Assembly: GCA_036504055.1 (NCBI GenBank)
Contig: DASXVU010000048.1
Location: 62,001 to 126,000 of the forward strand
Source: Methanomassiliicoccales archaeon
GTDB lineage: Archaea > Thermoplasmatota > Thermoplasmata > Methanomassiliicoccales > UBA472
Direction of reading: 5' to 3'
Length of the DNA stretch: 64,000 nucleotides
A program made the translations under genes and the position numbers. Under the pieces are notes generated by a model. That model was not told the origin of the DNA. It saw nothing but the letters and a program-made list of their open reading frames with translations, and made no database searches. Shown piece after piece: positions 10,994 through 46,109 of this stretch (position 1 is its first letter; each line of letters opens with the position of its first letter).

Positions 10994-11893
10994 TCAGGAG
11001 TGAGGCTGTTCCAGCATCGTCTCTGCCGCTTTGACGGTGTTGCGCATCAGCATGACGATGGTCATCGGACCTACCCCGCCAGGTACGGGAGTGATGGCGG
11101 CCGCCTTCTGCCTGACGGAATCGAAATCGACATCTCCCATGAGCCGATACCCCCGGGGCAGGCTGGCGTCTGGGACCCGGTTCGAGCCGACATCGATGAC
11201 CACCGCTCCCGGCTTGACCATATCGGCCTTGACGAATGCCGCCTCCGCCCCCATCGCGGAGACCAGGATATCAGCGGTGCGGGTGATCTCAGCCAGGTTC
11301 TCGGTCTTGGAGTGGCACACCGTGACCGTGGCGTTGGCGCGGTCATCCTTCTGCATAAGCATCGCCGCCAGTGGCTTCCCCACAATGTTGCTTCGTCCAA
11401 GGATGACCACGTGCTTACCCGACGGGGAGTTCCCGCTGCGGATGAGAAGTTCCTGTATCCCGTAAGGCGTCGCCGGCATGAAGCCGGAGTGGTCTCCGAT
11501 CAGGATCTTGCCCACATTGACCGGGTGGAAGGCGTCCACATCCTTGCGTTGGTCGATCCGGACCAGCACTTTGCGTTCGTCGATGTGGGGCGGTAATGGC
11601 AATTGTACCAGGATACCGTGGACCCGGGGGTCGGCGTTGAGATCGTCGATGAGTTCCAGCAGGTCCTCTTCCGGGAAGTCATTAGGCTTGAAGATCGTCT
11701 GGGAGTACATGCCCAATTCCTCGCTTGCCCTTCCCTTCATGCGGACATACGTTTGCGATGCCGCATCATCCCCTACCAGGATGACGGCCAGTCCGGGGAC
11801 GACTCCCTTGTCCTTCAGCGAGGATATCCTTTCCCTCAGTTCCTTCCTGATTTCCTCGGCGATGGGCTTTCCCTCGATCAAGATGGCGGTCAT
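10994..11893 (-). CDS. folD: Methylene-THF dehydrogenase/methenyl-THF cyclohydrolase FolD
   Basis: Bifunctional enzyme interconverting 10-formyl-, methenyl- and methylene-tetrahydrofolate with NAD(P)H. The 299 residues show the catalytic YVRMK pair (Y49, K53), VQLPLPPHID, KDVDAFHPVN, the nucleotide-binding GRSNIVGKP and the terminal TPVPGGVGPMT signature. It supplies the second and third steps of the THF methyl branch. Divergent fhs starts about 140 bases away, so both probably share a control region. A TATA-like TTTATTATTT and a GGGAGG element lie upstream of the ATG. The enzyme also serves ordinary one-carbon metabolism, so alone it does not prove acetogenesis. Confidence 0.96.
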   Translation of the reverse strand: MTAILIEGKPIAEEIRKELRERISSLKDKGVVPGLAVILVGDDAASQTYVRMKGRASEELGMYSQTIFKPNDFPEEDLLELIDDLNADPRVHGILVQLPLPPHIDERKVLVRIDQRKDVDAFHPVNVGKILIGDHSGFMPATPYGIQELLIRSGNSPSGKHVVILGRSNIVGKPLAAMLMQKDDRANATVTVCHSKTENLAEITRTADILVSAMGAEAAFVKADMVKPGAVVIDVGSNRVPDASLPRGYRLMGDVDFDSVRQKAAAITPVPGGVGPMTIVMLMRNTVKAAETMLEQPHS

Positions 11894-12036
11894 GAGGTCT
11901 CAGCGCCTCCCTATCTATCCCGTAAATAATAAATGTTCGATGCCCTACCGGGACTGCTGGTCAGGTACCCGGGAGGATGATGTCCAACGTTTAAGACATA
12001 CTTCCTACATATCTGTCCTTCCGCAGGGTGGAGCTA

Positions 12037-13710
12037 ATGAAGACCAACATCGAGATCGCTCAGGAAGTCAAGGCGAGACCCATAGAGGAGATAGCCAGAT
12101 CGGTCGGCCTAGACAATGATGACATCGTCCACTATGGCAAGTACATGGCGAAGGTGCCGTTGAGCGCTCTCAAGAAGTTCGATGACCGCCCGGTCGGGAA
12201 GCTCGTGCTCATGACAGCGATCACCGCGACCCCGGCCGGAGAAGGCAAAACGGTCACCACGATCGGCCTGGTGCAGGCGCTGGGAAGGCTGAACAAGAGG
12301 GTCATGGGGGCGATCCGTGAACCGTCCCTCGGACCAACGTTCGGTCTCAAGGGAGGCGCCACGGGCGGCGGTTACTCTCAGGTCTATCCGATGTGGGACA
12401 TCGACCTGCATTTCACCGGCGACATTCATGCGGTCGGGGCGGCCAACAATCTCCTCTCGGCGATCCTGGAGAACAGTATTTCAAAGAAGAATCCTCTGAA
12501 CATCGATCCTACCCGGATCGTTCTCCGCAAGGCGATGGACATGAACTGCCGCGAGCTGAGGCACATCGTTGTGGGGCTGGGCGGCAGGACCGAGGGCGGG
12601 ACCCCGCACGAGAGCGGTTTCATCATAACCGTGGCGACCGAGATCAGCGCCATCCTTGCCTTGGCCACCTCCGTGGCCGACCTCAAGGAGCGTCTTGGCC
12701 GGATGATAGTGGCGTACACCTACGAGGGAGAGCCGGTCACGACCACCCAGCTAGGATGCGTTGGCGCTCTGGCCCTGCTCCTTAAGGACGCCATCTTCCC
12801 CAACCTGGTGCAGACGCTGGAGGGAGAGCCGGTCTTCATCCACGGTTTCCCCTTCGCCAACATCGCCCATGGCAATTCATCGATCACTGCCACCAAGTAC
12901 GCCCTTAAGATGGCCGACATAGTGGTCACCGAGGCGGGCTTCGCGGCCGATCTGGGAGCTGAGAAGTTCTTTGACATCGTCTGCCGCAGCGAGGGCATAC
13001 ACGCCGACTGTGCCGTCATCGTCTGTTCGATCCGCGCGCTGAAGATGCATGGGAACGTCCCGGTGGACAAGGTCTGCACCCAGGACTGCGACGGCCTGAG
13101 GCGAGGCTTCTCCAACCTCGACAAGCACATAGAGAACATCAGGAAGTTCGGTGTCCCGATGGTCATAGCGTTGAACCATTTCGCCACGGACACCGAAGAG
13201 GAGATTCGCATAGTCATCGAACACTGCAAGGAGAAGGGGGTCCGCTGTGCCCTCTCCAACGTCTTCTCCAAGGGAGGGGAAGGAGGCGAGGAGCTTGCAA
13301 GACAGGTGCTGCATGTGCTCGAAAACGAGAAACCCAATTTCCGCTTCCTGTACGACACGAACCTGCCGCTCAAGGAGAAGATCCGGATAGTAGCGACCGA
13401 GATGTACGGGGCGATGGATGTGCAATACGAGAGCGGGGCGGAGAAGGCCATCAAGCTCATTGAGACCTCCGGCACCAATCGCCTACCGGTCTGCATGGCC
13501 AAGACCCAGCTGTCCCTGTCCGATAATCCGAAACTGAAGGGGGCCCCGACCGGTTGGGTGCTGAACGTCAGGGACGTGTTCGTTTCCGCCGGAGCAGGTT
13601 TCATCGTGGTGGTGTGCGGCCCGATCATGCTCATGCCCGGGCTGTCGTCCGAACCGGCCGCCTTGGGCATCGACATCAGCGACGACGGATACATCACCGG
13701 TCTGTACTGA
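12037..13710 (+). CDS. fhs: Formate-tetrahydrofolate ligase
   Basis: ATP-dependent formation of 10-formyl-THF from formate, the entry of the THF methyl branch. The 557-residue length equals the acetogen enzymes, and the protein aligns closely by eye to the Moorella enzyme throughout. The P-loop TPAGEGKT is at 65-72, REPSLGPTFGLKGGATGGGY follows, and GAGFIVVVCGPIMLMPGL is near the end. The ATG was preferred over a GTG three codons upstream because GGTGGAG is correctly spaced before it. The 3' end overlaps the convergent DUF3786 gene by 17 bases. Formate dehydrogenase is not in the window. Confidence 0.96.
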   Translation: MKTNIEIAQEVKARPIEEIARSVGLDNDDIVHYGKYMAKVPLSALKKFDDRPVGKLVLMTAITATPAGEGKTVTTIGLVQALGRLNKRVMGAIREPSLGPTFGLKGGATGGGYSQVYPMWDIDLHFTGDIHAVGAANNLLSAILENSISKKNPLNIDPTRIVLRKAMDMNCRELRHIVVGLGGRTEGGTPHESGFIITVATEISAILALATSVADLKERLGRMIVAYTYEGEPVTTTQLGCVGALALLLKDAIFPNLVQTLEGEPVFIHGFPFANIAHGNSSITATKYALKMADIVVTEAGFAADLGAEKFFDIVCRSEGIHADCAVIVCSIRALKMHGNVPVDKVCTQDCDGLRRGFSNLDKHIENIRKFGVPMVIALNHFATDTEEEIRIVIEHCKEKGVRCALSNVFSKGGEGGEELARQVLHVLENEKPNFRFLYDTNLPLKEKIRIVATEMYGAMDVQYESGAEKAIKLIETSGTNRLPVCMAKTQLSLSDNPKLKGAPTGWVLNVRDVFVSAGAGFIVVVCGPIMLMPGLSSEPAALGIDISDDGYITGLY

Positions 13711-15265: not shown

Positions 15266-15383
15266 CACCCAACAGGTCAGAAAGCCCGATCCATTTGAAC
15301 GTCCAGTACTGTTCGGTATCGATCCCGGCGCCTTGGGACGAGGCCCGGACCGCCATCTCGCCCTTACCAGGGGTGCTGTAGAC

Positions 15384-18241: not shown

Positions 18242-18642
18242 GGATCATCGGGTTCGTTTGCCGGGACAGCGCCCTGGTCGCGGCGGAACAGGCCGGAGCG
18301 ATGGGCCGTTCCATACCATCCTCGGCGACCTTGGTGGAGATGCCCTGCACCGGCCGCGTGGACGCCGTTCATATCCTGAGGGCTTTCCGGGAAGGGGCGG
18401 ACGCCGTTTTCGTCGCCGGATGCCTGGAAGGCAACTGCCGATACCAATATGGCAACATCGAGGCAAGGAAACGTGTTACTCTGACGAAATCTCAGCTCCA
18501 GGCTGCCGGGCTCGAACCTGAGCGGCTGGAGATGTTCAACCTGGCATCGAACCAGGAATGGAGGTTCGAGGAGATCGTCAAAGAGATGGTCTCCCGGGTC
18601 GAAAAACTTGGACCGAACCCCATCGGCAAGGTGAAGACATGA
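18238..18642 (+). CDS. mvhD: MvhD-like iron-sulfur electron transfer subunit
   Basis: Small [2Fe-2S]-type subunit that links HdrA to an electron donor such as hydrogenase or formate dehydrogenase. The 134 residues show the family cysteines C8, C37 (MPCTGRVD), C62 and C67 (AGCLEGNCRYQYGN). It starts in an ATGA overlap with HdrA-like II and ends in an ATGA overlap with metV. Its presence suggests the metVF complex accepts electrons through HdrA. The actual donor (hydrogenase or NAD(P)H module) is not in the window. Confidence 0.92.
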   Translation: MRIIGFVCRDSALVAAEQAGAMGRSIPSSATLVEMPCTGRVDAVHILRAFREGADAVFVAGCLEGNCRYQYGNIEARKRVTLTKSQLQAAGLEPERLEMFNLASNQEWRFEEIVKEMVSRVEKLGPNPIGKVKT

Positions 18643-19343
18643 TCATCGCGGAACAGAAACCCCTGAATGAAGTGATCGAGATGCTCGAAGGGCACAGCAG
18701 GGTGCTCGTGGTAGGATGCCGCTCCTGCGTGGCGGTGTGCCTGGCCGGAGGGGAGAAAGAGGCGGGCATCCTGGCGGAGTCGTTACGTCTGCATTCCGAC
18801 CTGAAGGGAAAGGAATGGGAGGTGGAGGAGGTCACCCTGGAACGGGTCTGCGAGAAGGAATGGGTCAGGGGTATGGATTCCGACATCGAAGGCAAGGACG
18901 TGGTCTTATCATTGGCCTGCGGAGTGGGGGCCCAGGTCATTCATGAACTATACCCAGGCATGTTCGTGGTCCCCGGTGTCAACACCATTTCCATGGGTGC
19001 TCCGGAGGAGCAGGGAATATACCTGGAGAAGTGCGGGGGCTGCGGTGATTGCGTACTGCACCTGACCGGCGGTGTATGTCCTGTCGCCCGATGCTCCAAA
19101 AGCCTGATGAACGGACCATGCGGAGGTTCGCAGAACGGCAAGTGCGAGATCGACCCGGACACACCCTGCGGTTGGGACCAGATCTACAGATCGCTCAAGG
19201 AGCTGAACCGTCTGGACCTGATGGAGACCGCCATCCCGCCGAAGAATTGGAGGCCAAGCCGTTCCGGAGGCCCGCGTAAGACGGTCCGGAAAGAGGCCGT
19301 CCAGACCGACGAGGAGAAGAAGATCAGGGGGGCATCGCCATGA
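18639..19343 (+). CDS. metV: MetV-like zinc/iron-sulfur subunit of methylene-THF reductase
   Basis: Accessory subunit of the acetogen methylene-THF reductase, 234 residues, usual for MetV. Cysteine groups are GCRSCVAVC near residues 26-34, and CGGCGDC followed by CPVARCSKSLMNGPCGG in the second half. The tail is lysine- and arginine-rich. The coding region overlaps mvhD and metF by four bases on either side, so subunits are probably made in fixed ratio. MetV is needed with MetF in Moorella-type enzymes that take electrons from iron-sulfur partners rather than directly from NADH. Confidence 0.9.
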   Translation: MIIAEQKPLNEVIEMLEGHSRVLVVGCRSCVAVCLAGGEKEAGILAESLRLHSDLKGKEWEVEEVTLERVCEKEWVRGMDSDIEGKDVVLSLACGVGAQVIHELYPGMFVVPGVNTISMGAPEEQGIYLEKCGGCGDCVLHLTGGVCPVARCSKSLMNGPCGGSQNGKCEIDPDTPCGWDQIYRSLKELNRLDLMETAIPPKNWRPSRSGGPRKTVRKEAVQTDEEKKIRGASP

Positions 19344-20272
19344 AGGCCGCCAGCAACCTGCAGGGGGTTCTCGATTCCGGGCAGTTCGCGGTCACGGCCG
19401 AGATCGGACCGCCGAAAGGGGCCAACCCTGAGGTCCTGAGGAAACACGCCAGGAACATGAAGGGTTACGCTGATGCCTTCAACCTTACCGACAACCAGAC
19501 GGCGGTCGTCAGGCTGTCCAGCTGGGCCGCTTCGCTCGTGTGCCTGCAGGAAGGCGTCGAACCGGTAATGCAGATGGCCTGCCGCGACCGGAACCGCATC
19601 GCCATCCAATCCGATGCGCTGGGCGCAAGCGCCCTGGGCGTGCGCAATGTCCTATGCCTGACCGGGGACCACCAGATATTCGGGAACCAGAAGGAGGCGA
19701 AGAACGTGTACGACCTGGACTCGATCCAGGAGCTCATGGTGCTGCGTTCGATGCGGGACGAGGGCAAGACCTGGGGAGGGGATACGCTGGATTCAGCCCC
19801 GCAGCTTTACCTGGGTGCGGTGGAGAATCCCTTCGGCGACCCGTTCGAGTTCCGGGTGCCCCGCTTGGCCAAGAAGGTGGCCGCCGGGGCAGATTTCATC
19901 CAGACCCAATCGATCTACGACATGGAAAGGTTCGAGACCTTCATGGACCAGGTCCGGGAACGCGGGCTCGACAGGAAGGTCCACATCCTGGCCGGAGTGC
20001 TTCCTCTAAAATCGGCGAAGGCTGCCCTATACATGAAGAACAAGGTCTCAGGCATGAGCGTTCCTGACGAGATAATCGACCGGATGAAGAATGCGGCCGA
20101 CCCGAAGGCGGAAGGGATTAAGCTATGCGTCGAGACCATCGAGCACCTCAAACAGGTAAAAGGGGTCCATGGCGTCCACATCATGGCCGTTGCGTGGGAG
20201 GAGAAGGTACCGGAGATAGTACGGGAGGCAGGTCTCCATCCCCGTCCGGTCATGATGGAACCGGAGCACTGA
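19340..20272 (+). CDS. metF: Methylene-tetrahydrofolate reductase MetF
   Basis: FMN/FAD TIM-barrel enzyme that reduces methylene-THF to methyl-THF, the last step of the methyl branch before AcsE. The 310 residues include FAVTAEIGPPKG with the catalytic glutamate, NLTDNQTAVVRLSS, NVLCLTGDHQ with the folate-binding aspartate, and GADFIQTQSIYDMERF. It lacks the long regulatory domain of eukaryal enzymes and matches the acetogen type paired with MetV. It is the last gene of the five-gene operon. An anabolic role in methionine synthesis would use the same chemistry. Confidence 0.95.
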   Translation: MKAASNLQGVLDSGQFAVTAEIGPPKGANPEVLRKHARNMKGYADAFNLTDNQTAVVRLSSWAASLVCLQEGVEPVMQMACRDRNRIAIQSDALGASALGVRNVLCLTGDHQIFGNQKEAKNVYDLDSIQELMVLRSMRDEGKTWGGDTLDSAPQLYLGAVENPFGDPFEFRVPRLAKKVAAGADFIQTQSIYDMERFETFMDQVRERGLDRKVHILAGVLPLKSAKAALYMKNKVSGMSVPDEIIDRMKNAADPKAEGIKLCVETIEHLKQVKGVHGVHIMAVAWEEKVPEIVREAGLHPRPVMMEPEH

Positions 20273-26238: not shown

Positions 26239-27018
26239 TCATTTCTTTTTGGCCAGAAGGTTGATCCGCCGGAAGGTCTCGAGATAGGTCCCTTCGTCCT
26301 TCTCGGTCCTCTCGAGCATTCTGGCCACGGTGTCATTCCGGAACGCTTCCTTGTCGTCGCTGGCGATCTGCTCCAGCAGGGGCACTATGGAGGGTTGGTC
26401 GATCCACCCGGTCATCTCGGCCGCAGTGAAGCGACGGTCGACGACCTCTCCCCATACCTGGAATTCATACAGACCTGTGGTTCTGACCTTTTCCCGATAT
26501 TCGTCGACCGAGGGCATGTACCACGGCCAAATGAAGTGCTCAAAGTACCGAGCATACCTCGGTGAGGACACAAGTTCCCTTGCCGCCGTGAAGAAATTGG
26601 GGCAGTTGCCCTCGCCAGCAAAGTTGAATCTGGCCACCCCTCCTGGTCTCAATGCCTCATGGACGTTCCGCAACAGTCTGTCATGGTCCTTGACCCAGTG
26701 AAGTGCGGCGTTCGAAAAGACGATATCGAACCCCCGGTGGAAGTCGAGGTCATCGATGTCCCGGCAAAGGAACTTAAGATTCGCAGTTTCCAAGGCCTTC
26801 GCCGCCTCGATCATCTGAATGGAGGAGTCCATACCCACGACCCCTCCGTTGGGGACCAGGGCAGCAAGCAGTGCGGTGAGGGCTCCCTCTCCGCATCCCA
26901 GGTCTAGAATGACCTCATCGCCCCTCAGTTGCAGTTCGTCGATCAGACGGTTTCCCCAGTCCTTCTGATGGCCAGAGGCAACGCAGTATTTCTCCGGATC
27001 GAACTCGTAGGAGCTCAT
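26239..27018 (-). CDS. Class I SAM-dependent methyltransferase
   Basis: A 259-residue Rossmann methyltransferase. Motif I is VILDLGCGEGALTALLA, motif II is VVGMDSSIQMIEAAK, and motif IV region is FDIVFSNAALHWVKDHD. The pattern is closest to trans-aconitate methyltransferase (Tam-like) proteins, though this group includes many small-molecule methyltransferases. The ATG overlaps the acsE stop (ATGA), so the two are translationally coupled. That coupling is notable, but no link to the acetyl-CoA pathway is established. Confidence 0.85.
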   Translation of the reverse strand: MSSYEFDPEKYCVASGHQKDWGNRLIDELQLRGDEVILDLGCGEGALTALLAALVPNGGVVGMDSSIQMIEAAKALETANLKFLCRDIDDLDFHRGFDIVFSNAALHWVKDHDRLLRNVHEALRPGGVARFNFAGEGNCPNFFTAARELVSSPRYARYFEHFIWPWYMPSVDEYREKVRTTGLYEFQVWGEVVDRRFTAAEMTGWIDQPSIVPLLEQIASDDKEAFRNDTVARMLERTEKDEGTYLETFRRINLLAKKK

Positions 27019-27791
27019 GCTCTTAGGTAATCATCACAGTAAAGTTTCTCGTTCCGCAGGATCTGGGCGGTCTTGAGGGTTTCCATCAGCTGGGTGTCCT
27101 CAGGATCTAGGATGGCGGCGCTGAGCCCCGCTCCCATCAGCATGGCCAGGAAGGTCCGGTTGACCAATGGCCGGTCCTTCGCCCCGTTGGAGATGTTGCT
27201 CAAGCCCACGACCGTCCTCGGGGAGGGGTCGTTGAGCTGCTGGAAAAGTTCGATTGCCTTGATCACCTTGGACCCTTGGTCCTGGGCCGCCTTGGTGGGC
27301 AGGATGAGGGGGTCGAGGAATAATCTTTCCGGCATTATCTCGTTCTCCATGGCAGTGGTCATCATGACCATGGCCATCTCGGCCCTGGACTCGGCATCGT
27401 TCGGAATGCCCCTCTCGTCCATGGTGAGGCAGATGATGTCGGCGTTATATTCCCTGGCCAGAGGGAAGAAGACGTCCATGCGCTTCTTCTCCGCCGTGGT
27501 GGAGTTCATGACCACCTTGTTCTTGCACGCCTTCAATCCGGCCGTCATGGTCTTCGCACCGGGGGTGTCCAGACATAGCGGGACATCGGTCACGTCCTGG
27601 ACCGCCCTCACAAGCCAGTCCATCGCGGCCGGTCCGTCCTCCCGGCCCGGTCCGACGTTGATGTCCAGTATGTTCGCGCCGCATTCGACCTGTTTCAATG
27701 CGTGCTGCTGGATGAACTTGGCGTCGCGATTATCGATCGCTCTGCCTACGGAAGTGAAAAGCCCGTTGATGCGCTCGCTGATGACTATCAT
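27015..27791 (-). CDS. acsE: Methyl-THF:corrinoid iron-sulfur protein methyltransferase AcsE
   Basis: Transfers the methyl group from methyl-THF to the cobalt of the AcsC/AcsD corrinoid protein. The 258 residues align by eye along the whole length of Moorella AcsE (262 residues). Matching elements include SERINGLF, ANILDINVGPG, VPLCLDTPG, VVMNSTTAEKKRMD, FLDPLILPTKAAQDQ and GLSNISNGAKDRPLVNRTF. It is a pterin-binding TIM barrel without a corrinoid domain. It lies about 12 kb from acsCD rather than in that operon, and overlaps a methyltransferase gene downstream. Confidence 0.94.
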   Translation of the reverse strand: MIVISERINGLFTSVGRAIDNRDAKFIQQHALKQVECGANILDINVGPGREDGPAAMDWLVRAVQDVTDVPLCLDTPGAKTMTAGLKACKNKVVMNSTTAEKKRMDVFFPLAREYNADIICLTMDERGIPNDAESRAEMAMVMMTTAMENEIMPERLFLDPLILPTKAAQDQGSKVIKAIELFQQLNDPSPRTVVGLSNISNGAKDRPLVNRTFLAMLMGAGLSAAILDPEDTQLMETLKTAQILRNEKLYCDDYLRA

Positions 27792-32289: not shown

Positions 32290-34233
32290 ATGAGCGTTTC
32301 CGTCAGATTCTATCCCAAGGGCACCACCGTCGAGGTCGAAGAAGGATCGACCCTTCTGGAGGCTGCCTTCCTGGCCGGTGTGGAGGTCAACAGCGCCTGC
32401 GGGGGGAAGGGGACCTGCGGACGCTGCCGGATGATCGTGAGCGGCAATTTCGGTTCCAAGCAGACCGACCTTATAATGCCCGATGACTGGAACATGGGCT
32501 ATCGGCTGGCCTGCATGACCAAGGTTCTCGGGGACACCGTGGCCTATGTCCCGGAGGAGACCCGGCTCAACGAGATGCAGATACTGGAGACATACTTCGG
32601 CTCAAAGATCGAAGAGGTCTCACCCTTGTCGTCGGCGGTCTATCTGGAACTCCAACCTCCCACGCTCGACAACAGCGTTGGCGATCGGGAGCGCATCGAA
32701 TGCGCGTTGAAACTGGAGGCTGGCGCCCTTTTATTCCCGCTGAGCGTCCTAAAGGAGCTTCCATGCACCCTGAGGCGCACCGCATGGAGGGTCACTCCGG
32801 TGTTGGACCGCTCCTCCATCAATCCCTCCGTGATCGAGGTCAACGAATGGGACACCACCTCCCGCAATTTCGGTATAGCCCTGGACATCGGAACGACCAC
32901 CGTGGTCCTTTCGCTGATCGACCTGTCCAGCGGGAACGTGGTCACCCAGGCATCCGCCTACAACAAGCAGATAATGTGCGGGGAGGACATTCTAGCAAGG
33001 ATCGCGTTCGCCGAGGACGGAGGTCTCGATCGCCTACACCAGCTGGTCATAGATACCATCAACAACCTCCTTACCCAGGTCAGCAACAACTCGGACAAAT
33101 GCAAGGCCACCAATACCAGGGTATGCAAGGAGGAGATCACCGCCATGGCCGTCGGCGGAAACACAACGATGGTCCATCTCTTCCTGGGACTTCATCCGAA
33201 GACCATTCGATACGACCCATACATCTCGGTGACCAACATCCCGCCCTCGGTCAAGGCCAAGGAACTCGGAATCGAGATCCATCCGGAGGCGCCGGTGTAC
33301 TGCGTCCCCGGAAGGGCCAGCTACGTCGGAGGAGACATCGTGGCCGATGTGATCTCCAGCGGCATGCGGGATCAGGATGGGATCTCGCTCCTCATTGACG
33401 TCGGAACCAATGGGGAGATCGTCCTGGGCGGTAAGGATTGGATGGCATCCTGCTCGTGCTCGGCGGGACCGGCGTTCGAGGGCGGGGAGGTGGCCTGCGG
33501 CATGAGGGCCATGCCCGGGGCGATCGAGCGGATATCCATCGACGGCTCGTTCGGCGTCACGTATTCCACCATCGCTGGCCAGAAACCGATGGGTCTGTGC
33601 GGTTCAGGCCTCATCGACCTGATCGCCAGCATGTTCCGGACCGGGATCGTCGACAAGAAGGGAAGGATCCAAGAGGTAAGGACCGACCGGGTCAGGAAGA
33701 CCGACAACGGCCGGGAGTTCGTCGTAGCCTGGGCGAAGGAGACAGGACAGCCGAAGCTGAAGATACCGCCTTCGATGAACGGAATGATCACCAAGGCCCT
33801 GCCGGCGAAGGACATAGCGGTCAACGACGATGACCTGGCCAACATAATCCGGACCAAGGCTGCGGTATATGCGGCGTGCGAAGTGCTGCTGAAGAGCGTG
33901 GACATGACCTTCGTTGACCTGGACCGGATATACGTCGCCGGCGGCTTCGGCAACTACATCGACGTCAATAACGCCATCACCATCGGCCTGTTGCCCGATG
34001 TCCCAAGGGACAAGTTCAGCTTCATAGGCAACGCTTCCCTGGGCGGGGCCAGGCTGGCCCTGATGTCACAGAGGAAGAGGGACGAGGCCCTGGAGGTGCA
34101 TCGGTCCATGACCTATCTGGAACTGACCACCAGCGCATCGTTCTTTGACCGCTTCACCTCGGCATCGTTCCTTCCCCACACGGACCAATCGCAGTTCCCT
34201 TCTTTGGAGAACCTTTCACAGAAGGGCGAATGA
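32290..34233 (+). CDS. ASKHA-type reductive activator of corrinoid proteins (AcsV/RACE-like)
   Basis: ATP-dependent protein that returns inactive cob(II)alamin in corrinoid proteins to the active cob(I)alamin state. The N-terminal [2Fe-2S] ferredoxin has ligands C37, C43, C46 and C75 (NSACGGKGTCGRCR, RLACMT). After a linker, the actin-like ATPase domain begins near 195 with IALDIGTTTVVLSL and continues through AVGGNTTMVHLF, IDVGTNGEIV, GLCGSGLIDL and YVAGGFGNYID. The 647-residue length and domain order match RACE/AcsV proteins. Within this window its likely target is AcsC/AcsD. The C-terminal 60 residues are a less conserved tail. Confidence 0.92.
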   Translation: MSVSVRFYPKGTTVEVEEGSTLLEAAFLAGVEVNSACGGKGTCGRCRMIVSGNFGSKQTDLIMPDDWNMGYRLACMTKVLGDTVAYVPEETRLNEMQILETYFGSKIEEVSPLSSAVYLELQPPTLDNSVGDRERIECALKLEAGALLFPLSVLKELPCTLRRTAWRVTPVLDRSSINPSVIEVNEWDTTSRNFGIALDIGTTTVVLSLIDLSSGNVVTQASAYNKQIMCGEDILARIAFAEDGGLDRLHQLVIDTINNLLTQVSNNSDKCKATNTRVCKEEITAMAVGGNTTMVHLFLGLHPKTIRYDPYISVTNIPPSVKAKELGIEIHPEAPVYCVPGRASYVGGDIVADVISSGMRDQDGISLLIDVGTNGEIVLGGKDWMASCSCSAGPAFEGGEVACGMRAMPGAIERISIDGSFGVTYSTIAGQKPMGLCGSGLIDLIASMFRTGIVDKKGRIQEVRTDRVRKTDNGREFVVAWAKETGQPKLKIPPSMNGMITKALPAKDIAVNDDDLANIIRTKAAVYAACEVLLKSVDMTFVDLDRIYVAGGFGNYIDVNNAITIGLLPDVPRDKFSFIGNASLGGARLALMSQRKRDEALEVHRSMTYLELTTSASFFDRFTSASFLPHTDQSQFPSLENLSQKGE

Positions 34234-36988: not shown

Positions 36989-38038
36989 ATGCCCGGTAAA
37001 ATAGAGTGGGCCATGGCCTGGAACTGCGCACCGACGTGCATCGGATCGATGCCCTTCAGCGACCCGATCAAAGCACTCGACGAGATAGTCAGCCGGCTTC
37101 ATGAGGTCCCCTGCTGGCCCCAGCTGCCTGCCCGCGGATTCCAGGAGAATATGTATGCCCAATACGCCACGAACCTGCCGGGAGTGGTCATCGACCGGGA
37201 GAACAAGAGGGTGACAGTGGACCTGGGCAGCTACGATCCGGAGGATTTCTACAATCGGATCATAAACGATGATGTGGACAGCTTCGCCTATCCGGAGGAC
37301 TGCTTTTCCGGGTTCTATGAGCTGATGAAACGAAAGATGCCATCTGGTGTCGTCGCGGTCAAAGGCCAGGTGATCGGACCGGTAAGTGCCGGCCTCCAGA
37401 TAGTGGACCAGAACGGACGGCCGACGATATATGATGAGGCCTACGGGGAGATCATACGCAGAAATCTGAACATGTGCACCCGATGGCAGGAGCGTCAGCT
37501 GGCCAAACTCTCGGACAAGGTGATCATCTTTCTCGACGAGCCTTCTCTATCTCTGATCGGAACGCCCTTTGCCTCCGTCTCGGCGGACAATGTCATTTCC
37601 TGGATAGATGAGGTGCTGGAAGGGGTCAAGGCGGTACGTGGGCTGCACTGTTGCGGTAACACTGACTGGCCGATGGTCCTCTCGACCAGTGTGGACCTGT
37701 TGTCGTTCGACGCCTACAACTACGCCTTCTCGGTCTCCCTCTATCCAGAACAATTGAAGGCTTTTCTGGAACGGGGCGGCACTCTGTGCTGGGGGCTCAT
37801 CCCCAATATGAGCCACCGCTTGGAGAATGAGAACGTGGACACAATCATGGCGAAGTTCGATCATACGATCAACGAACTGGTGGCCAAAGGTCTGAACCGG
37901 GACAGGCTGCTCGAACAGTCGATGATCACGCCGGAATGTGGACTGGGCGGTCTCAGCGAGGCCGAAGCCCTTCATGTGCTGGATCTGCTGGTCGGCGTAT
38001 CCGAGGCGATACGATCGAAGAACGGACTGGAGGATTGA
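36989..38038 (+). CDS. Core methionine synthase (MetE C-terminal type)
   Basis: Zinc TIM-barrel methyltransferase of the short MetE/UROD superfamily, 349 residues, without the N-terminal half of plant and bacterial MetE. Likely zinc ligands are H220 and C222 in GLHCCGNTD and C317 in TPECGLGG; FLDEPSLSLI is the conserved strand. Core MetE of Dehalococcoides takes its methyl group from a methyl-corrinoid protein, and short archaeal forms do likewise. Its position directly before cooC and the acs genes makes methyl-AcsCD a plausible donor for methionine. Another methylcobalamin-dependent transfer is possible. Confidence 0.8.
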   Translation: MPGKIEWAMAWNCAPTCIGSMPFSDPIKALDEIVSRLHEVPCWPQLPARGFQENMYAQYATNLPGVVIDRENKRVTVDLGSYDPEDFYNRIINDDVDSFAYPEDCFSGFYELMKRKMPSGVVAVKGQVIGPVSAGLQIVDQNGRPTIYDEAYGEIIRRNLNMCTRWQERQLAKLSDKVIIFLDEPSLSLIGTPFASVSADNVISWIDEVLEGVKAVRGLHCCGNTDWPMVLSTSVDLLSFDAYNYAFSVSLYPEQLKAFLERGGTLCWGLIPNMSHRLENENVDTIMAKFDHTINELVAKGLNRDRLLEQSMITPECGLGGLSEAEALHVLDLLVGVSEAIRSKNGLED

Positions 38039-38039
38039 G

Positions 38040-38792
38040 GTGACCTTCATCGTGGCCGTCGCCGGCAAGGGAGGAGTGGGCAAGTCCACCCTGTCGGCGC
38101 TCCTGATCAAGGTCATCGCCGAACGGACCAGAACGGTGGTGATGGCCATCGATGCCGATCCGAACTCCAACCTCGGCGACAAGCTGGGCATGAAGGTCGA
38201 GCATACCATCGGCGAACTGAGGGAGGACCTTCTGCGCAAGGCCGATGAGCTGAGCGCAGGCCTCAGCAAGCACGAGCTGGTCCGTTACCAGATGGAGATG
38301 GCGAAGGTGGAGGGCAGTAACTTCGACCTTCTCACGATGGGACGGCCGGAGGGCCGCGGCTGTTATTGTTACATCAACAACATCCTGAGGACGTTCATCG
38401 ATGAGGCGATGGACGCATACGACTATGTGGTCATCGACAACGAGGCCGGCATGGAGCACCTCTCCCGACGGACCACGAAGAGGATGGACGTGCTGCTGAT
38501 CGTTTCCGACGCCACAAAGCTCGGCGTCGAGACGGGAAAGAGGATAATGGCCCTGGCCAAGGGTATGGAGATCGAAGTTGGCCGCAGTGTGCTGGTGGTC
38601 AACCGGGTCCAGGGGACGGTGGCGGACGCGGTCAGGCTGGAGATAGACGCCGCCGGATTCGGCTCGGTGGTCTACCTGCCGTTCGACAGGAAGGTCGAGG
38701 AAATGGCTGTCACCGGCTCTCCGGTGGTCCAGCTTGATACCTATAGTCAGTTCTATCGCGCCGTCAATGAGCTCGCCAGCACTCTGAAGTGA
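38040..38792 (+). CDS. cooC: CooC/AcsF-type nickel-insertion ATPase
   Basis: MinD-like P-loop ATPase that loads nickel into CO dehydrogenase and/or acetyl-CoA synthase. The 250 residues have the deviant Walker A GKGGVGKS at 9-16 and the nickel/zinc-binding CxC pair C108-C110 in GRGCYCY. The switch region YVVIDNEAGMEHLSRR is also present. The GTG start overlaps the end of the methionine synthase gene region by position only (its stop is two bases upstream) and has GGAGG before it. The convergent acs operon begins downstream. A second, partial paralogue lies at the right edge of the window. Confidence 0.9.
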   Translation: MTFIVAVAGKGGVGKSTLSALLIKVIAERTRTVVMAIDADPNSNLGDKLGMKVEHTIGELREDLLRKADELSAGLSKHELVRYQMEMAKVEGSNFDLLTMGRPEGRGCYCYINNILRTFIDEAMDAYDYVVIDNEAGMEHLSRRTTKRMDVLLIVSDATKLGVETGKRIMALAKGMEIEVGRSVLVVNRVQGTVADAVRLEIDAAGFGSVVYLPFDRKVEEMAVTGSPVVQLDTYSQFYRAVNELASTLK

Positions 38793-39712: not shown

Positions 39713-41038
39713 TCACTCCAGCGATTTGAGCATCTTGGGGAGCCCCGACGACTCCTTCGGCCCTACCACGATCTTCATGCCGGTCAGTTCTGCAAGCTTC
39801 GGTGACATGCGTGCCACCATCCCCGGTATGATCAGGACGTTCTTCTTCGACTTAGTCCTGGCACCGGATCTGTCCATGTCGTGTACGACCCCTTCGGATG
39901 TGAGCTTCCCGGCGGCGAATGCCGTCAGGACGCTGAGCCCTTCGCAGTCGACGACCTGTAACCAGACCGGCACCTTGCTCTTATCGATGTCCCCCAGCAC
40001 GGTGAAGTAGGTGAGCGAGAAGTTCGTCGTGAACAGGATGGGCGAATCCTCCGTCGGATTGCCGATGGGATACAGGCCCGGTTTGACCTGGATCGGCACC
40101 TGGGGATCGGTGTAGATGTTCTGGCGCAGCACGAACAGAGGTATGGCCATCTGGGGCAGGAGCTCCTCGAACACCACGATCGACCCGTATTTCATGGTCG
40201 AGATCAGGCCCATGGTGACCCCCCGGTTCCCGGCCGGAGCGTTCACCAGCAGAGGATATCCCAAGCCCCGGAACGTCTTCTTGACGGAGAGCTTGCGGAT
40301 GACGGTGCTCTTCTCGATCAGCTCCTTGAGAGTGCCGGGAGCGAAGTCCAGGACGATGTCCTCGATCCCCGCCAGCTTCACCTTGGCAACCATGTCGGCC
40401 AGGTCGTTCAGGTTGGACTCCCTGACCACCAGGGGGCACTTGAACTCCTTGGCCACCGCGGCCATCTCGGTCAGGTTGGCCTTGGTGGCGGCAGATATGA
40501 GCGGGACCTTTGCCGAGATCCTCAAGCAAGCCGCCTTGATGGCCGCCGGGTCTTCGCTGGCCAGGATGATCGGCAGTTCGGTCGAGGACGAGACCTTCTC
40601 CACCGTCGCCACGAACCTGGCGGTGTCCTTGGAATCGTTCCTGACGCACACCATGTCCAGGGCCATGATCTGACCCACGCGCTCGAAGCGCATGGCGTTG
40701 GCCTTCTGGACCCTGGAGACCACATCGTTCTCGGCCAATGTGTCCGGGACGATGATGGAATAACGGACCGGATGGAAGAACTTCTTGTCGTGGCGGTACA
40801 GTTCCGTCTCATCGCCCATTTCCAGCGTCGCTTTTCCGGTGCCTACCTTGACCAGACGGATCGGCGGTGCGGACGATGCGGCGAGCGCCTGTTTTCCAGC
40901 GTCGGAGACGTACGGGCAATCCTCCAGCTTAGCCTTCTGGTTGGCCAGCTGCATGGCGAACGCCAGGCAGGTGGGGTGCTTGCACTCTCCGCAGTTCTTC
41001 TTCGGCAGGTGCTTGAAGATCTCGATGGCGGTCGGCAT
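39713..41038 (-). CDS. acsC: Corrinoid iron-sulfur protein large subunit AcsC
   Basis: Binds the [4Fe-4S] cluster and, with AcsD, the corrinoid that carries the methyl group from methyl-THF to acetyl-CoA synthase. The 441 residues open with the cluster ligands C16, C19, C24 and C41 (NCGECKHPTC), in the same spacing as the Moorella subunit. A TIM barrel follows, and the C-terminal corrinoid-binding part includes GKLTSEGVVHDMD. The ATG lies just after the acsD stop. It is the last gene of the acs operon. Confidence 0.95.
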   Translation of the reverse strand: MPTAIEIFKHLPKKNCGECKHPTCLAFAMQLANQKAKLEDCPYVSDAGKQALAASSAPPIRLVKVGTGKATLEMGDETELYRHDKKFFHPVRYSIIVPDTLAENDVVSRVQKANAMRFERVGQIMALDMVCVRNDSKDTARFVATVEKVSSSTELPIILASEDPAAIKAACLRISAKVPLISAATKANLTEMAAVAKEFKCPLVVRESNLNDLADMVAKVKLAGIEDIVLDFAPGTLKELIEKSTVIRKLSVKKTFRGLGYPLLVNAPAGNRGVTMGLISTMKYGSIVVFEELLPQMAIPLFVLRQNIYTDPQVPIQVKPGLYPIGNPTEDSPILFTTNFSLTYFTVLGDIDKSKVPVWLQVVDCEGLSVLTAFAAGKLTSEGVVHDMDRSGARTKSKKNVLIIPGMVARMSPKLAELTGMKIVVGPKESSGLPKMLKSLE

Positions 41039-41039
41039 A

Positions 41040-41996
41040 TCAGTTCCCTCCCCTGAGATCGTCCAGCGCCTCACGCACGATATCTGCCGCTCCCGGGTGC
41101 CTCATGACCAGTATATCGGCCCCGGAGACCAGCGCCGCTATCGCGGTGGTCGCCTCCCACCAGATGCCCCTTTCCTTGGCGTCCCCGTAGCCGACGATGT
41201 CGTCGGACGCTTCGGCCGATTTCCACGAGGCGGTGGAGTCGCACAGCATCGGCTGCTGCAGCATGCCGTCGCCCATCAGGGCCGCCAGCCGGATGCGTTC
41301 GTTAACGGAATACGAGTAGTCCAGTCCCATGCCCAGACCGGCCATCAGCGGGTCCATGGCTATATTCTCCTTCTTCACCCCGAAATCGGTGAGCAGGATG
41401 GTGATCTGCTTCGCCAGGTTGATGTCCAGGTTGGAGAAAGCGATGAGCGGATGATCGTTGGCCATCGAGGCCGCCGATATGGATTTGTAATGCCCTTCCT
41501 CGGCGTAGCCGAGCAGCAGCCTTTCCTTCGGCGCGATGTTGCTGACCGCCTCCAGCGTCTTGGCGTCCTTCTCTTCCTGGCCGCATCCATAGACGATCAA
41601 TGGGACATCGACCGCGGCCAGCACCCTCTTGACGGTCTCGGCGGCCGATTCGGGGGATGCGTTCGCCTCCTCCGGGTTGGTCGACAGGAGCTTCAGGCAG
41701 ATGACCTCGGCGTGGTATCTCTCCACCCAGGCCTTGGCCCACTGGACCGGGTCCTTGACGGCGTCCCCGAAGAACTCGGCGACCGCCTTGGGAAGTTCGT
41801 CGGTGGTGTCCATGACCTCCCCGGCGATGACCTGTCGGTTAGGTGATGTCCCTTCGTACGAAAGGAAGGGCATGCCGTTGCTTCCGCCCACCAGGACCTT
41901 CTTCCCCCTTGAGCCGCCCTTCTCCGCCGAAGCGCCTAGCTCCAGTACGCCGATCTTGCCCGTCCACTTCTCCTTGGGGATTGGAACCTCGACCAT
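41040..41996 (-). CDS. acsD: Corrinoid iron-sulfur protein small subunit AcsD
   Basis: Partner of AcsC, 318 residues against about 323 in acetogens. The TIM-barrel begins VEVPIPKEKWTGKIGVLELG, and contains PNRQVIAGEVMD, VPLIVYGCGQEEKD and a DPLMAGLGMGLDYSYSVNERIR segment that is diagnostic. The ATG was chosen for its GGAAGGT element nine bases upstream; the frame remains open further back inside the acetyl-CoA synthase gene, but no start there would fit. It lies 20 bases after the CODH-ACS stop. Confidence 0.94.
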   Translation of the reverse strand: MVEVPIPKEKWTGKIGVLELGASAEKGGSRGKKVLVGGSNGMPFLSYEGTSPNRQVIAGEVMDTTDELPKAVAEFFGDAVKDPVQWAKAWVERYHAEVICLKLLSTNPEEANASPESAAETVKRVLAAVDVPLIVYGCGQEEKDAKTLEAVSNIAPKERLLLGYAEEGHYKSISAASMANDHPLIAFSNLDINLAKQITILLTDFGVKKENIAMDPLMAGLGMGLDYSYSVNERIRLAALMGDGMLQQPMLCDSTASWKSAEASDDIVGYGDAKERGIWWEATTAIAALVSGADILVMRHPGAADIVREALDDLRGGN

Positions 41997-42016: not shown

Positions 42017-45000
42017 TTACTGCAGCAGCGGCGGCATCCTCAAAGCTGGGTGGTCCACCTTGGCCATCCACTCGGTCAGTCCGTCCGCTTCCGTGGTGAC
42101 CGTCTCGTCCGCGATCTTGTCCACGAAGTCCGGTTCGCCCAGTTCCGCCGCTCTCTTCTCCAGCGTTCCGCGCATCGCTTCCTTTAGATCCTTTGGCATC
42201 CACGCGATGCGGAGGAAACCGCCGTCGGCTGGGATGAATTTCTTGCTGATAAGGTATTTCCTGCCGACGCCGATGAAACCGGGGGTCTGCTTTCCGCCGC
42301 CGATCGAACCGGCCAGCGTCGAGAACTTCATTCCGACCGGGGTCATGCCCGGGAACTCCCGGTTGACCACTATGACCGCCTGGACGTCCGCGGTCATGGC
42401 CACGATGCACTCGAAACAGCCGCAGGAGGTCATCGGGTCCTCCATCAGAGTATAGGCATTGAACCGCTCCAGCTTGTGGTGCGTGAGGTCGTAGACCGCC
42501 TGGTTGACCCCGGTCCATTGGCCTTTGACAGCGTCAACCGTTTCGCCCTTCGGTATGGGCTGGTTCGGTCCGGTCGGTGATATCTCCTTGCCGGTCTTCG
42601 CGTCCAGATAGTTGATCGCCCCGCACAGACCGAGCCTTTCCGGCGTCACGATGCAGATATGATCAGGCGCGAACGACTGGCACATGAGACAGGAATAGAA
42701 CGTGTCCACCGCCTCGTCGGTCAGGCCGGCCATCCGGGCGTCCCTCTTGGCGTACACCTCCATGGCCTCCGGCTGCCGGCGCCTGATCTCCTCCTCATCG
42801 GTGACGATGGTGACCTGGACCCGGCTGATGATGTTGCCGAACTCCTCTTTCATCTTGGTGATGAGGATGTCCCCGAAGTGCTTGAAACGGAAACCGGCGG
42901 CCACCGCGTTCTTGCTCAGACGAAGCCAGTTCAGGTTCCTCTGTCCGGTGTGCCAGACCCCCTCGGCGAAGTTCAGGAACAGGTGGATCCGGCGCTCCAT
43001 CACGGACTCGAAGTCCTCCTGCATCTTCTTGCCGTAAACGTCTATGATGATGGCCAGCGGAGTGATCGAGCCTTCGGCCATCTGGTCCACGTCCTTTCCG
43101 ATGACGGTGACCTTGCCGTCCTGGACGTCCGCCTCGTCCCTCATCCTGAGCAGCTCGAAGGTGAGGGTCTTCGAAGCGCCTCCCGCCTCCACGTAGGTAT
43201 CGGGACGGCGGACCGTCTCCCCCTCGAAGGCTGCCCCATAAGCCACCGGAACGTCCACCGATGCTGCCTTTACCTTGATGTCCCTCAGTTCGATGGCGGT
43301 CTGCAGCATGTTTTCCGGGATCTGGGTCACGAAACGGTCCGGTATGCCCTCCAGCATCTGATCGGCCACCACCGGGGAACCGTTCAGAAGTACCGCGAAC
43401 TCGGCCGATGCCTTGATGGCGTCCAGCGGTCCGAGCTGCAGGACGAACACCTTCGGACGTTTCTTCATGTAGCCTTCCAGGCGTTCCCGGTCCCCCCTCT
43501 GCACTCCGCCGAACGAGAGCGCCGCCCGGATCGCGAAATTGAGCGCATGGATCACCTGGGTGAACTCCCCGACCGGGTAGAGCATCATGTCCAGGCCCAT
43601 GTGGATGCCGTTGTCCTTGAGCTGCCTCACGGTGTCGTAGGTGGCGAATATCAGCATGCCCTTGCTCTGACATTCCCTGACCGTCCTGACCAGTTGCTTC
43701 GGGTCCTTGGCCGTGCCGACCAGGACCGCCGCCCCGGGGATGGTGTCGTCGACGAAGGCCAGACCCAGCTGCCGCAATATGCGGTCGGGGACAAAGCCGG
43801 TGTACATGGTGCCGTCGTAAGGCTTGGCATCGTCGATGTACTTCAGGGACTCGATTATCTCGGCCGCCACCATGGTGGCCTCGCCGGCGATCAGGGCGTT
43901 CTCCAGGTTGGGGGTCTCCCTGATCTTGCCGCGCACCTTGCCCAGGATGCCAGGCAGGTCGCCCAGTTTCTTTGCCTCGGATCCGTCCCAGGCATAGATC
44001 GAAGGTAGCTCGTAGGCAGTTTCCGGGTATTCGATCTTCTTGTCGTAACCATGCTTCTCGATGGCCACGCCCAGCAACTGGTCGGCGAAGCCGGTGGAGA
44101 TGAGCGCGCCGTCTATGGCCATGCGGAACAGGCGCTGGTTGGAGAGCTTCTTGCCCTCTTCGACCGAGTAATGGTTATCGAGCGAAAGCATCCAGCGCCG
44201 GCGTTCGATGGTGTTCAGCAGTCGATGCGAGGCCTTGTGAGGGTCCGCCTCGAACATGAAGTGGCCTCCGAAGACATCACCCGCCGAATGCTCCAGAACC
44301 TCGGTGACCAGCGATGAACCGTGGATATAGTTGATGGTGCCGACGTGGACCGGCATGCCTAGAGCGACGCACCAGGTGCCGATGGACACCGCCTTCTCGT
44401 GGTTCGCCTCCGGCGCCGAGACGACGAACGGTATGCCGGAAACGTCCGTTCCCATCCGCACCGCTATCTCCTTGGCCAGGTTTGCCGCCCGGGTGTTGTC
44501 GACGCACGAGCCCATATGCCATACCGGAGGGAGCTTGACGTTGTTCTTCTCTTCGAGCGACCGGATGAACGCTTTCAGTCCGGGCCCTGCGTAACTCTCG
44601 GTGGCCTCAGCGGATAGGAGGTCGTTCTTGGCGCACGCACCGGCGGAACAGCCGGTGGTCAGCACCAGGACATCGTGCTTGATCATCTCCTTGGCGATGG
44701 TCAGGTGGTTGTGGTCCTGGACCGCTTTCTGGTTATTGCAGCCCGCCAGCAGCGCGATCCCGCGTATCTGGCCGGACCTGATGGCCTCGACTATGTGGAC
44801 CAGGGGGTCCTCCGGTACGAACGGAGTGCACAGCTCCTCGATCTGCTCGGTGCTGAACCCGGCCACCACATCATACTTGACGTTGGGAATCTTGACCTTG
44901 GCCGGTTCCCGGCGTTTGAATGCCTGGATGGCCATCCGTATGATCGACCTGGCCGATGCTTCCGCATCCTCTTCCCGGAACTGGACGTGCGTGTCATACG

Positions 45001-46090
45001 GGATGCGGACGTTGCTCATGGTGGTGATCATCTCGGTATGCATGCAAGAGCAGATCTCCGAGAGCGATGGCATGATGCACTGGTAGTCGGCCACCAGCAG
45101 GTCGACCGCACCGGTCGCCAGGGCCAGCTCCTGCGAAGCGAAGTTCGACGCCATGGAGACCCCTTTTCTCATCATGGTCTCGTTCCCGGTGCAGCAGATA
45201 CCGACTATGTTGATCCCCGACGCGCCCGCCTGGCGCGCCTCCTCGTCCATCGTCCTGGCGACGTCCACGATGATCTCGCTGAGCACCGGGTTATGGCCGT
45301 GGATCGCGATGTTGACCGCCTCTTCCTTGAGGGCGCCCAGGTTGGCGTAGGTGTGGACCAGCCGGGGCGTGCCGAACAGTATGTCCGATAGGTCGGTGGA
45401 TATCTGCATCCCGTTGTAATCGGCGATGGCGCAGCTGATGCCGCCGAAGATGAGCGGCAAGGGATCGGCGTCGCAGCCCAGCGACGTGCGGTGCATGACG
45501 TCGGCGATGGAATGGTCGATCGAGTCCGGCATGACACCGAGCGATCCGAGAAGTTCGGTGCGCTGCTTGGTGATGGTGGCGGTGGTGAAGCTCAAGGGAA
45601 GCTTCTCGCTCCGTCCATAGTCATCGAACACTTTGACCAGGACCGCCCGGGCCAGGTCCTCTTTCGATCTCCCCTGGCTGCTGATCCCGAGCCGTTCAGA
45701 TACCCGCCTCAGTTTCTGCTCGTCCTTGATCGAGTATGATGGGGCCTTGCCGTCCAGCACCTTGCGCAGCGTGTCTGCCAGGTGGCGGCCGTGGCCCGAA
45801 TGGGATGCGGTGCCCCCGGCGATGTGACGGATGAGGTTCCTGGCCACGATCGTGTAGTCCCTTGCCCCGCAGATCCCCTTTTCCGGCTTGCCGCCATAGG
45901 GGTTGATGCGGCAGGGACCCTGGAGACAGTTGTTGCAGCAGATCCCGAGCTCTCCGAAACCGCATTGAGGTTGCATCAGCTCGTACCGGTCCCAGGCGGT
46001 CTCGATCTTCTTGGCGGCCGCTGTCTCGATGCACTCCTTTCCCCCGGCGTCGCAGGTGCGTTCCAGGGTGCCCTTCCTCTTGGTCGCCAT
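42017..46090 (-). CDS. Fused CO dehydrogenase/acetyl-CoA synthase (AcsA-AcsB)
   Basis: One 1357-residue chain that should reduce CO2 to CO and join it with methyl and CoA. Residues 1 to about 635 are a bacterial AcsA/CooS-type CODH. The B/D-cluster cysteines lie in CGFGELGICCNNCLQGPC (43-60). Likely C-cluster ligands are H266, C300 (or 299), C338, C451, C481 and C529. From about 655 the chain is acetyl-CoA synthase with the bacterial N-terminal CODH-contact domain. A-cluster cysteines C1134, C1137, C1146 and C1156 with C1223-G-C1225 keep exactly the Moorella spacing. The linker is about 20 residues with no stop. AGGAGAT precedes the ATG. The two enzymes are separate proteins in acetogens. Confidence 0.93.
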   Translation of the reverse strand: MATKRKGTLERTCDAGGKECIETAAAKKIETAWDRYELMQPQCGFGELGICCNNCLQGPCRINPYGGKPEKGICGARDYTIVARNLIRHIAGGTASHSGHGRHLADTLRKVLDGKAPSYSIKDEQKLRRVSERLGISSQGRSKEDLARAVLVKVFDDYGRSEKLPLSFTTATITKQRTELLGSLGVMPDSIDHSIADVMHRTSLGCDADPLPLIFGGISCAIADYNGMQISTDLSDILFGTPRLVHTYANLGALKEEAVNIAIHGHNPVLSEIIVDVARTMDEEARQAGASGINIVGICCTGNETMMRKGVSMASNFASQELALATGAVDLLVADYQCIMPSLSEICSCMHTEMITTMSNVRIPYDTHVQFREEDAEASARSIIRMAIQAFKRREPAKVKIPNVKYDVVAGFSTEQIEELCTPFVPEDPLVHIVEAIRSGQIRGIALLAGCNNQKAVQDHNHLTIAKEMIKHDVLVLTTGCSAGACAKNDLLSAEATESYAGPGLKAFIRSLEEKNNVKLPPVWHMGSCVDNTRAANLAKEIAVRMGTDVSGIPFVVSAPEANHEKAVSIGTWCVALGMPVHVGTINYIHGSSLVTEVLEHSAGDVFGGHFMFEADPHKASHRLLNTIERRRWMLSLDNHYSVEEGKKLSNQRLFRMAIDGALISTGFADQLLGVAIEKHGYDKKIEYPETAYELPSIYAWDGSEAKKLGDLPGILGKVRGKIRETPNLENALIAGEATMVAAEIIESLKYIDDAKPYDGTMYTGFVPDRILRQLGLAFVDDTIPGAAVLVGTAKDPKQLVRTVRECQSKGMLIFATYDTVRQLKDNGIHMGLDMMLYPVGEFTQVIHALNFAIRAALSFGGVQRGDRERLEGYMKKRPKVFVLQLGPLDAIKASAEFAVLLNGSPVVADQMLEGIPDRFVTQIPENMLQTAIELRDIKVKAASVDVPVAYGAAFEGETVRRPDTYVEAGGASKTLTFELLRMRDEADVQDGKVTVIGKDVDQMAEGSITPLAIIIDVYGKKMQEDFESVMERRIHLFLNFAEGVWHTGQRNLNWLRLSKNAVAAGFRFKHFGDILITKMKEEFGNIISRVQVTIVTDEEEIRRRQPEAMEVYAKRDARMAGLTDEAVDTFYSCLMCQSFAPDHICIVTPERLGLCGAINYLDAKTGKEISPTGPNQPIPKGETVDAVKGQWTGVNQAVYDLTHHKLERFNAYTLMEDPMTSCGCFECIVAMTADVQAVIVVNREFPGMTPVGMKFSTLAGSIGGGKQTPGFIGVGRKYLISKKFIPADGGFLRIAWMPKDLKEAMRGTLEKRAAELGEPDFVDKIADETVTTEADGLTEWMAKVDHPALRMPPLLQ

Positions 46091-46109
46091 TGGATGATCT
46101 CCTGGGGCT

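Follow-up and report, generated by a model that had tools for sequence, protein, structure and literature searches.

Carbon monoxide dehydrogenase/acetyl-CoA synthase (CODH/ACS) is among the oldest of carbon-fixing machines, and a question of long standing is how CO is transferred within it. In the closest known bacterial systems, those of Moorella thermoacetica and Carboxydothermus hydrogenoformans, CODH (AcsA) and ACS (AcsB) are two separate chains, and the bacterial-type complex is reportedly also found in Methanomassiliicoccales methanogens (Adam et al. 2018). Speth and Orphan 2018 reported CODH/ACS in a Methanomassiliicoccales genome (PMC6147122). The CdhC subunit of classical methanogens lacks the A1 domain (PMC11474084), and for Methanimicrococcus blatticola CdhCDE is listed without CdhAB (PMC9723798). 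Inoue et al. 2019 state that their supplement classifies fused Ni-CODHs (PMC6344411). Our literature search found no description of a CODH-ACS fusion or of its decay; key papers were beyond its reach, and an earlier mention is possible.

The window, a 64,000-nucleotide stretch of a Methanomassiliicoccales contig, contains a single gene (42017..46090, minus strand) in which CODH and ACS are joined. A sequence-only reading, which gave no strand, had claimed an uninterrupted 1357-residue frame here, and the frame is indeed stop-free on the minus strand from 46090 to its stop codon at 42017-42019, with a predicted product of 148.6 kDa. Direct reading places a ribosome-binding-like AGGAG (46099..46103, minus strand) upstream of the ATG, and GC3 is even over the two halves. 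Residues 1-638 (44177..46090) form the CODH half, with matches to Pfam Prismane, NCBIfam TIGR01702 and CODH-II (Foldseek TMt 0.93), and residues 651-1357 (42020..44140) form the ACS half, with matches to NF040764 (950 bits) and Moorella 1oao_C, its A1 domain reaching to about residue 940 and A2 and A3 following. The linker comes to approximately 17 residues (about 634-650; 44141..44191), which bears out the earlier figure of about 20, and all three segments lie on the minus strand. Pfam resolves the protein into Prismane (50-617), CODH_A_N (673-752), CdhC (947-1102) and ACS_C (1113-1356), whilst NCBIfam assigns CO_DH_cata at 670 bits (cut-off 478) and CODH_ACS_al_bet at 950 bits (cut-off 800). 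Against the PDB, residues 12-636 match C. hydrogenoformans CODH-II and residues 644-1356 match Moorella ACS 13-729. An AlphaFold2 model of residues 1-960 as a monomer (mean pLDDT 77.5, pTM 0.63) showed both halves folded with a loop at 637-645, where the linker is of low confidence; a Foldseek search with this model gave only CODH chains among the matches listed. To judge by its sequence, the protein is a CooS/AcsA-type CODH (approximately 1-638) followed by an AcsB-type ACS (approximately 644-1357).

Both halves retain full sets of cluster ligands. Aligned to C. hydrogenoformans CODH-II, the CODH half carries the D-cluster cysteines C43 and C51 and the B-cluster cysteines C52, C55, C60 and C74 (45869..45964, minus strand), the C-cluster ligands H266, C300, C338, C451, C481 and C529 (44504..45295, minus strand) and the acid/base pair H97 and K566, so that all 14 of 14 positions match and the claim of a complete bacterial-type CODH stands. 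The claim of a complete bacterial-type ACS holds as well: the N-terminal CODH-contact domain A1 is present (CODH_A_N; Moorella 13-312 aligned), and the A-cluster ligands C1134, C1137, C1146, C1156, C1223 and C1225 (42416..42691, minus strand; Moorella alignment) have the exact spacing of Moorella 506-597 (3/9/10/67/2). Moorella A110, A222 and A265, which we take to be the alanines of the CO tunnel, correspond to residues 743, 853 and 896 of the window protein; 25 of the 26 fused ACS halves retain all three. The ACS alcove residues, as named in PMC11321310, are conserved in all archaeal groups, save for I/L/V/F swaps at position 146.

The surroundings of the fused gene supply the acsC, acsD and acsE functions and a tetrahydrofolate (THF) methyl branch, as expected of a bacterial-type CODH/ACS. 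Only 20 bp downstream lies acsD, for the corrinoid protein small subunit (41040..41996, minus strand; NF003376), followed by acsC, for the corrinoid iron-sulfur protein large subunit (39713..41038, minus strand; NF003195, 533 bits). Further away are a CooC-like MinD-type ATPase, probably for nickel insertion (37938..38792, plus strand), an AcsV-like corrinoid activation protein (32290..34233, plus strand) with NF040756 as its best match at 612 bits, below the cut-off of 800, and an AcsE-like methyl-THF:corrinoid protein methyltransferase (27015..27791, minus strand; NF005719, 301 bits). The methyl branch comprises a pair of MetV-like protein and methylene-THF reductase MetF (18558..20272, plus strand; DUF5981 and MTHFR), the formate-THF ligase Fhs (12028..13710, plus strand; NF010030, 805 bits) and the methylene-THF dehydrogenase/cyclohydrolase FolD (10994..11893, minus strand). 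Beside the MetV/MetF pair, two adjoining frames at 15333-18241 match parts of HdrA, and are possibly an electron-transfer partner of the reductase. Next to the cooC-like gene, 36989-38038 encodes a protein of 349 residues that weakly resembles methionine synthase and has no Pfam match.

McrA was found in the window genome, and the H4MPT enzyme Mtd was absent from it and from 25 relatives; together with the gene set of the window, this shows a methanogen carrying a bacterial-type, folate-based Wood-Ljungdahl set. McrA was present in 15 of the 16 Methanomassiliicoccales genomes tested, the exception (G346) being a draft that is 93% complete. Because McrA was absent from the fused relatives outside Methanomassiliicoccales, the fusion is independent of methanogenesis. 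A second, separate CODH (L002; 39% identity) is encoded outside the window at G000:C48:10327-12177 and has a serine in place of one D-cluster cysteine; related copies occur in many Methanomassiliicoccales whose CODH halves are dead, remnant or missing.

The sequence-only reading had called for a search for homologues with both domains in one protein, and searches of the class (400 genomes), the phylum Thermoplasmatota (293) and the order (147) recovered 24 full-length fusions, the window included, at 57-100% identity. Five further fusions, truncated at a contig end or interrupted by a frameshift, still span the junction, and five fusion loci are also present on named GenBank contigs, including those of Methanomassiliicoccales archaeon PtaU1.Bin124 and OWC_0013. 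Across Thermoplasmatota and the two bacterial phyla searched, all 24 full-length fusions were in Thermoplasmatota, in methanogens and non-methanogens. The bacterial search took in 250 genomes from one phylum, that of an Oscillospiraceae contig, and 151 from a second, and the loci read there showed no fusion; CODH and ACS genes were separate in all of the more than 40 bacterial loci read. Open frames of approximately 1400 aa that the genome search reported from bacteria were rejected, as they read through stops and the actual genes are separate. The fusion is, thus, a lineage-wide feature of Thermoplasmatota and not a one-off, within a group in which separate genes recur.

Separate trees of the CODH and ACS halves, which had also been proposed, agree broadly but not exactly. 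Thermoplasmatota CODH forms group together (100/99), and in the ACS tree a branch (99) sets Thermoplasmatota apart, with the remnant forms and those that have ACS alone lying inside Methanomassiliicoccales; the two trees conflict over where the f19/f23 group and the f20/f58/f63/f39 fusions belong. An AU test on the CODH tree rejected a single clade of fused CODH halves (p 0.015), implying either one fusion with a later split or two fusions. The linkers are clade-specific, their length and sequence changing along with the phylogeny and junction lengths being kept within clades, and the unfused CODHs of f19 and f45 end in a tail sequence like that of some fused linkers. An early origin of the fusion within Thermoplasmatota, followed by a split or occurring twice, belongs to an overall explanation that, taken as a whole, we hold with high confidence.

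Could the single frame be an artefact, in which a missed stop or frameshift joined neighbouring genes? Separate CODH and ACS genes often adjoin, some of them in-frame and a stop or a few codons apart (L072, L119, L149), and in L072 (G409) a single TGA interrupts what is otherwise one frame; the CODH of this locus aligns with S at a D-cluster cysteine and E at the catalytic lysine. However, independent assemblies yield 24 full-length frames with this junction, and their clade-specific linkers track phylogeny. As independent assemblies carry the same fusion, a missed stop is ruled out as a general explanation, and we regard an assembly or sequencing error at this locus as exceedingly improbable. 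The many independent genomes, the complete ligand sets and the broadly congruent trees all speak for a genuine CODH-ACS fusion. A genuine fused gene could nevertheless yield the usual alpha2-beta2 complex, were the product cut in the linker or ACS also translated from an internal start. The linker, a low-confidence loop of poorly conserved, clade-specific sequence, would suit such a cut, but direct reading found no internal start codon with a ribosome-binding site within it, and the constancy of junction lengths inside clades also speaks against separate working chains, which we think unlikely.

The direction of the reaction is a different matter. The CODH/ACS reaction is reversible, and for that reason sequence cannot decide which way the fused enzyme works. 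It might run mainly in reverse, breaking down acetyl-CoA to use acetate or to supply methyl groups instead of fixing CO2: the host is a methanogen by McrA, and the Methanomassiliicoccales genome MALP has been read as possibly aceticlastic via ACS/CODH (PMC6147122). Against this, the THF methyl branch in the window is complete, Fhs and MetF included, and is just as compatible with synthesis; we give the reverse direction a real but smaller share of the probability.

The reading that we favour, and consider very likely, is a bifunctional, bacterial-type, single-chain CODH-ACS that forms the carbonyl branch of a THF-based Wood-Ljungdahl pathway in a Methanomassiliicoccales methanogen. We infer its activity, direction, dimer formation and channelling as follows. 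The CODH half would reduce CO2 to CO at the C-cluster, and an internal tunnel would carry the CO to the ACS half; AcsE would load AcsC/AcsD with the methyl group of methyl-THF, and the A-cluster would combine CO, the methyl group from AcsC/AcsD and CoA into acetyl-CoA. Two chains would pair via their CODH halves, turning the alpha2-beta2 complex into a homodimer. Of the two consequences originally suggested for the fusion, a fixed CODH-ACS ratio (1:1) follows from there being one chain; a CO channel held in place would be consistent with the conserved tunnel alanines (25/26).

Within Methanomassiliicoccales the CODH half has decayed in several lineages. Three genomes of genus g6 (L023, L214 and the partial L213) have an open fused frame as far as the sequence goes, that of L214 stopping at a contig end short of ACS. 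L023 and L214 have lost most D- and B-cluster ligands as well as H266 and C300 of the C-cluster, and L213, which covers only the C-terminal part, has the acid/base K replaced there. Between L023 and L214, dN is 0.38 and dS 1.28, a ratio of approximately 0.30 compared with 0.18 in an intact pair, indicating that the dead g6 CODH half is still constrained by purifying selection. Genus g2, family f6 and genus g14 (family f2) have an ACS with an N-terminal extension of approximately 280-350 residues. In a profile comparison, all extensions together matched CODH 409-643 (probability 98.2, E 3e-14; reversed control 0.3), and the g14 extensions alone reached only 74-87. Other Methanomassiliicoccales have ACS alone, sometimes with no other CODH found; none was found beside the lone ACS in G156, an assembly of one contig that is 99% complete. 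The CODH half thus appears to have been lost stepwise, presumably from dead full-length to remnant to gone, a series that would start from the intact window enzyme.

The ACS of these lineages has changed unevenly. Of the alignment columns that hardly vary in intact fused ACS, the remnant and ACS-alone forms keep 61-80% in the A1 domain, compared with 90% in separate complete systems, and 90-97% in the A3 region. All ten of the remnant ACS proteins have at least one larger residue at the positions of Moorella A110, A222 or A265, and tunnel-blocking work on Moorella is said to have used C, L and M substitutions, the same as occur in some remnant ACS. As the enrichment of these three tunnel sites over other conserved A1 alanines is only at about p 0.05 (12 sites), we set the substitutions aside as proof of closure and treat them as suggestive. 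Together with the conserved alcove residues, these changes fit an ACS that would still bind CO but no longer receive it via the tunnel. We lean towards the view that the CODH half of these sister lineages is a metal-free pseudoenzyme, kept by selection and fused to a normal-looking ACS whose tunnel is unconstrained or blocked, and which uses free CO or only cleaves or exchanges acetyl-CoA. Because CODH halves in sister lineages are dead or eroded yet still fused, the tether cannot serve CO delivery everywhere. Some irregular sequences were also seen: the remnant ACS of L078 has F aligned at one A-cluster cysteine position, and L045 (RumEn M1), L068 (G373) and L215 (G1006) have ACS or CODH frames with frameshifts or stops, from decay or assembly error. 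Five genomes of genus g11 in family f2 (G047, G062, G099, G265 and G271) encode very divergent ACS-like proteins of 32-35% identity, and no CODH match was found in them.

The decay series amounts to a natural experiment, bearing both on the CO tunnel and on what ACS does when CODH is missing, in methanogens for which CO2 fixation is not known. The natural single-chain form itself offers structural and kinetic studies a tethered enzyme of fixed stoichiometry.

Set against described systems, the window enzyme is closest to AcsA and AcsB of M. thermoacetica and C. hydrogenoformans, with which it shares domains, cluster ligands, A1, A-cluster spacing, alcove residues and the neighbouring acsC, acsD and acsE functions. 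It is a variant of the standard bacterial-type CODH/ACS, departing from it in having one frame of 1357 aa in place of two chains, and the terminal extensions of the bacterial chains are absent between its halves. With the CdhA-E complex of Methanosarcina it has the overall reaction in common. In contrast to the archaeal Cdh complex with its short CdhC, the window ACS has A1, and unlike CdhA its CODH half is bacterial-type, scoring only 56 bits against TIGR00314 (cdhA; cut-off 781). ACS is kept without CODH in M. blatticola and likewise in several Methanomassiliicoccales, although the CdhC of the former is archaeal-type whereas the ACS of the latter is bacterial-type, in some cases with a dead or eroded CODH half. 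The nearest unfused relatives are other Thermoplasmatota with separate CODH and ACS genes (f19, f23, f45 and f56), whose CODH tail (GI..IYW.G.T) is similar to the linker found in part of the fused forms; in these relatives the two reading frames overlap or lie one stop apart, whereas in the window they are a single frame.
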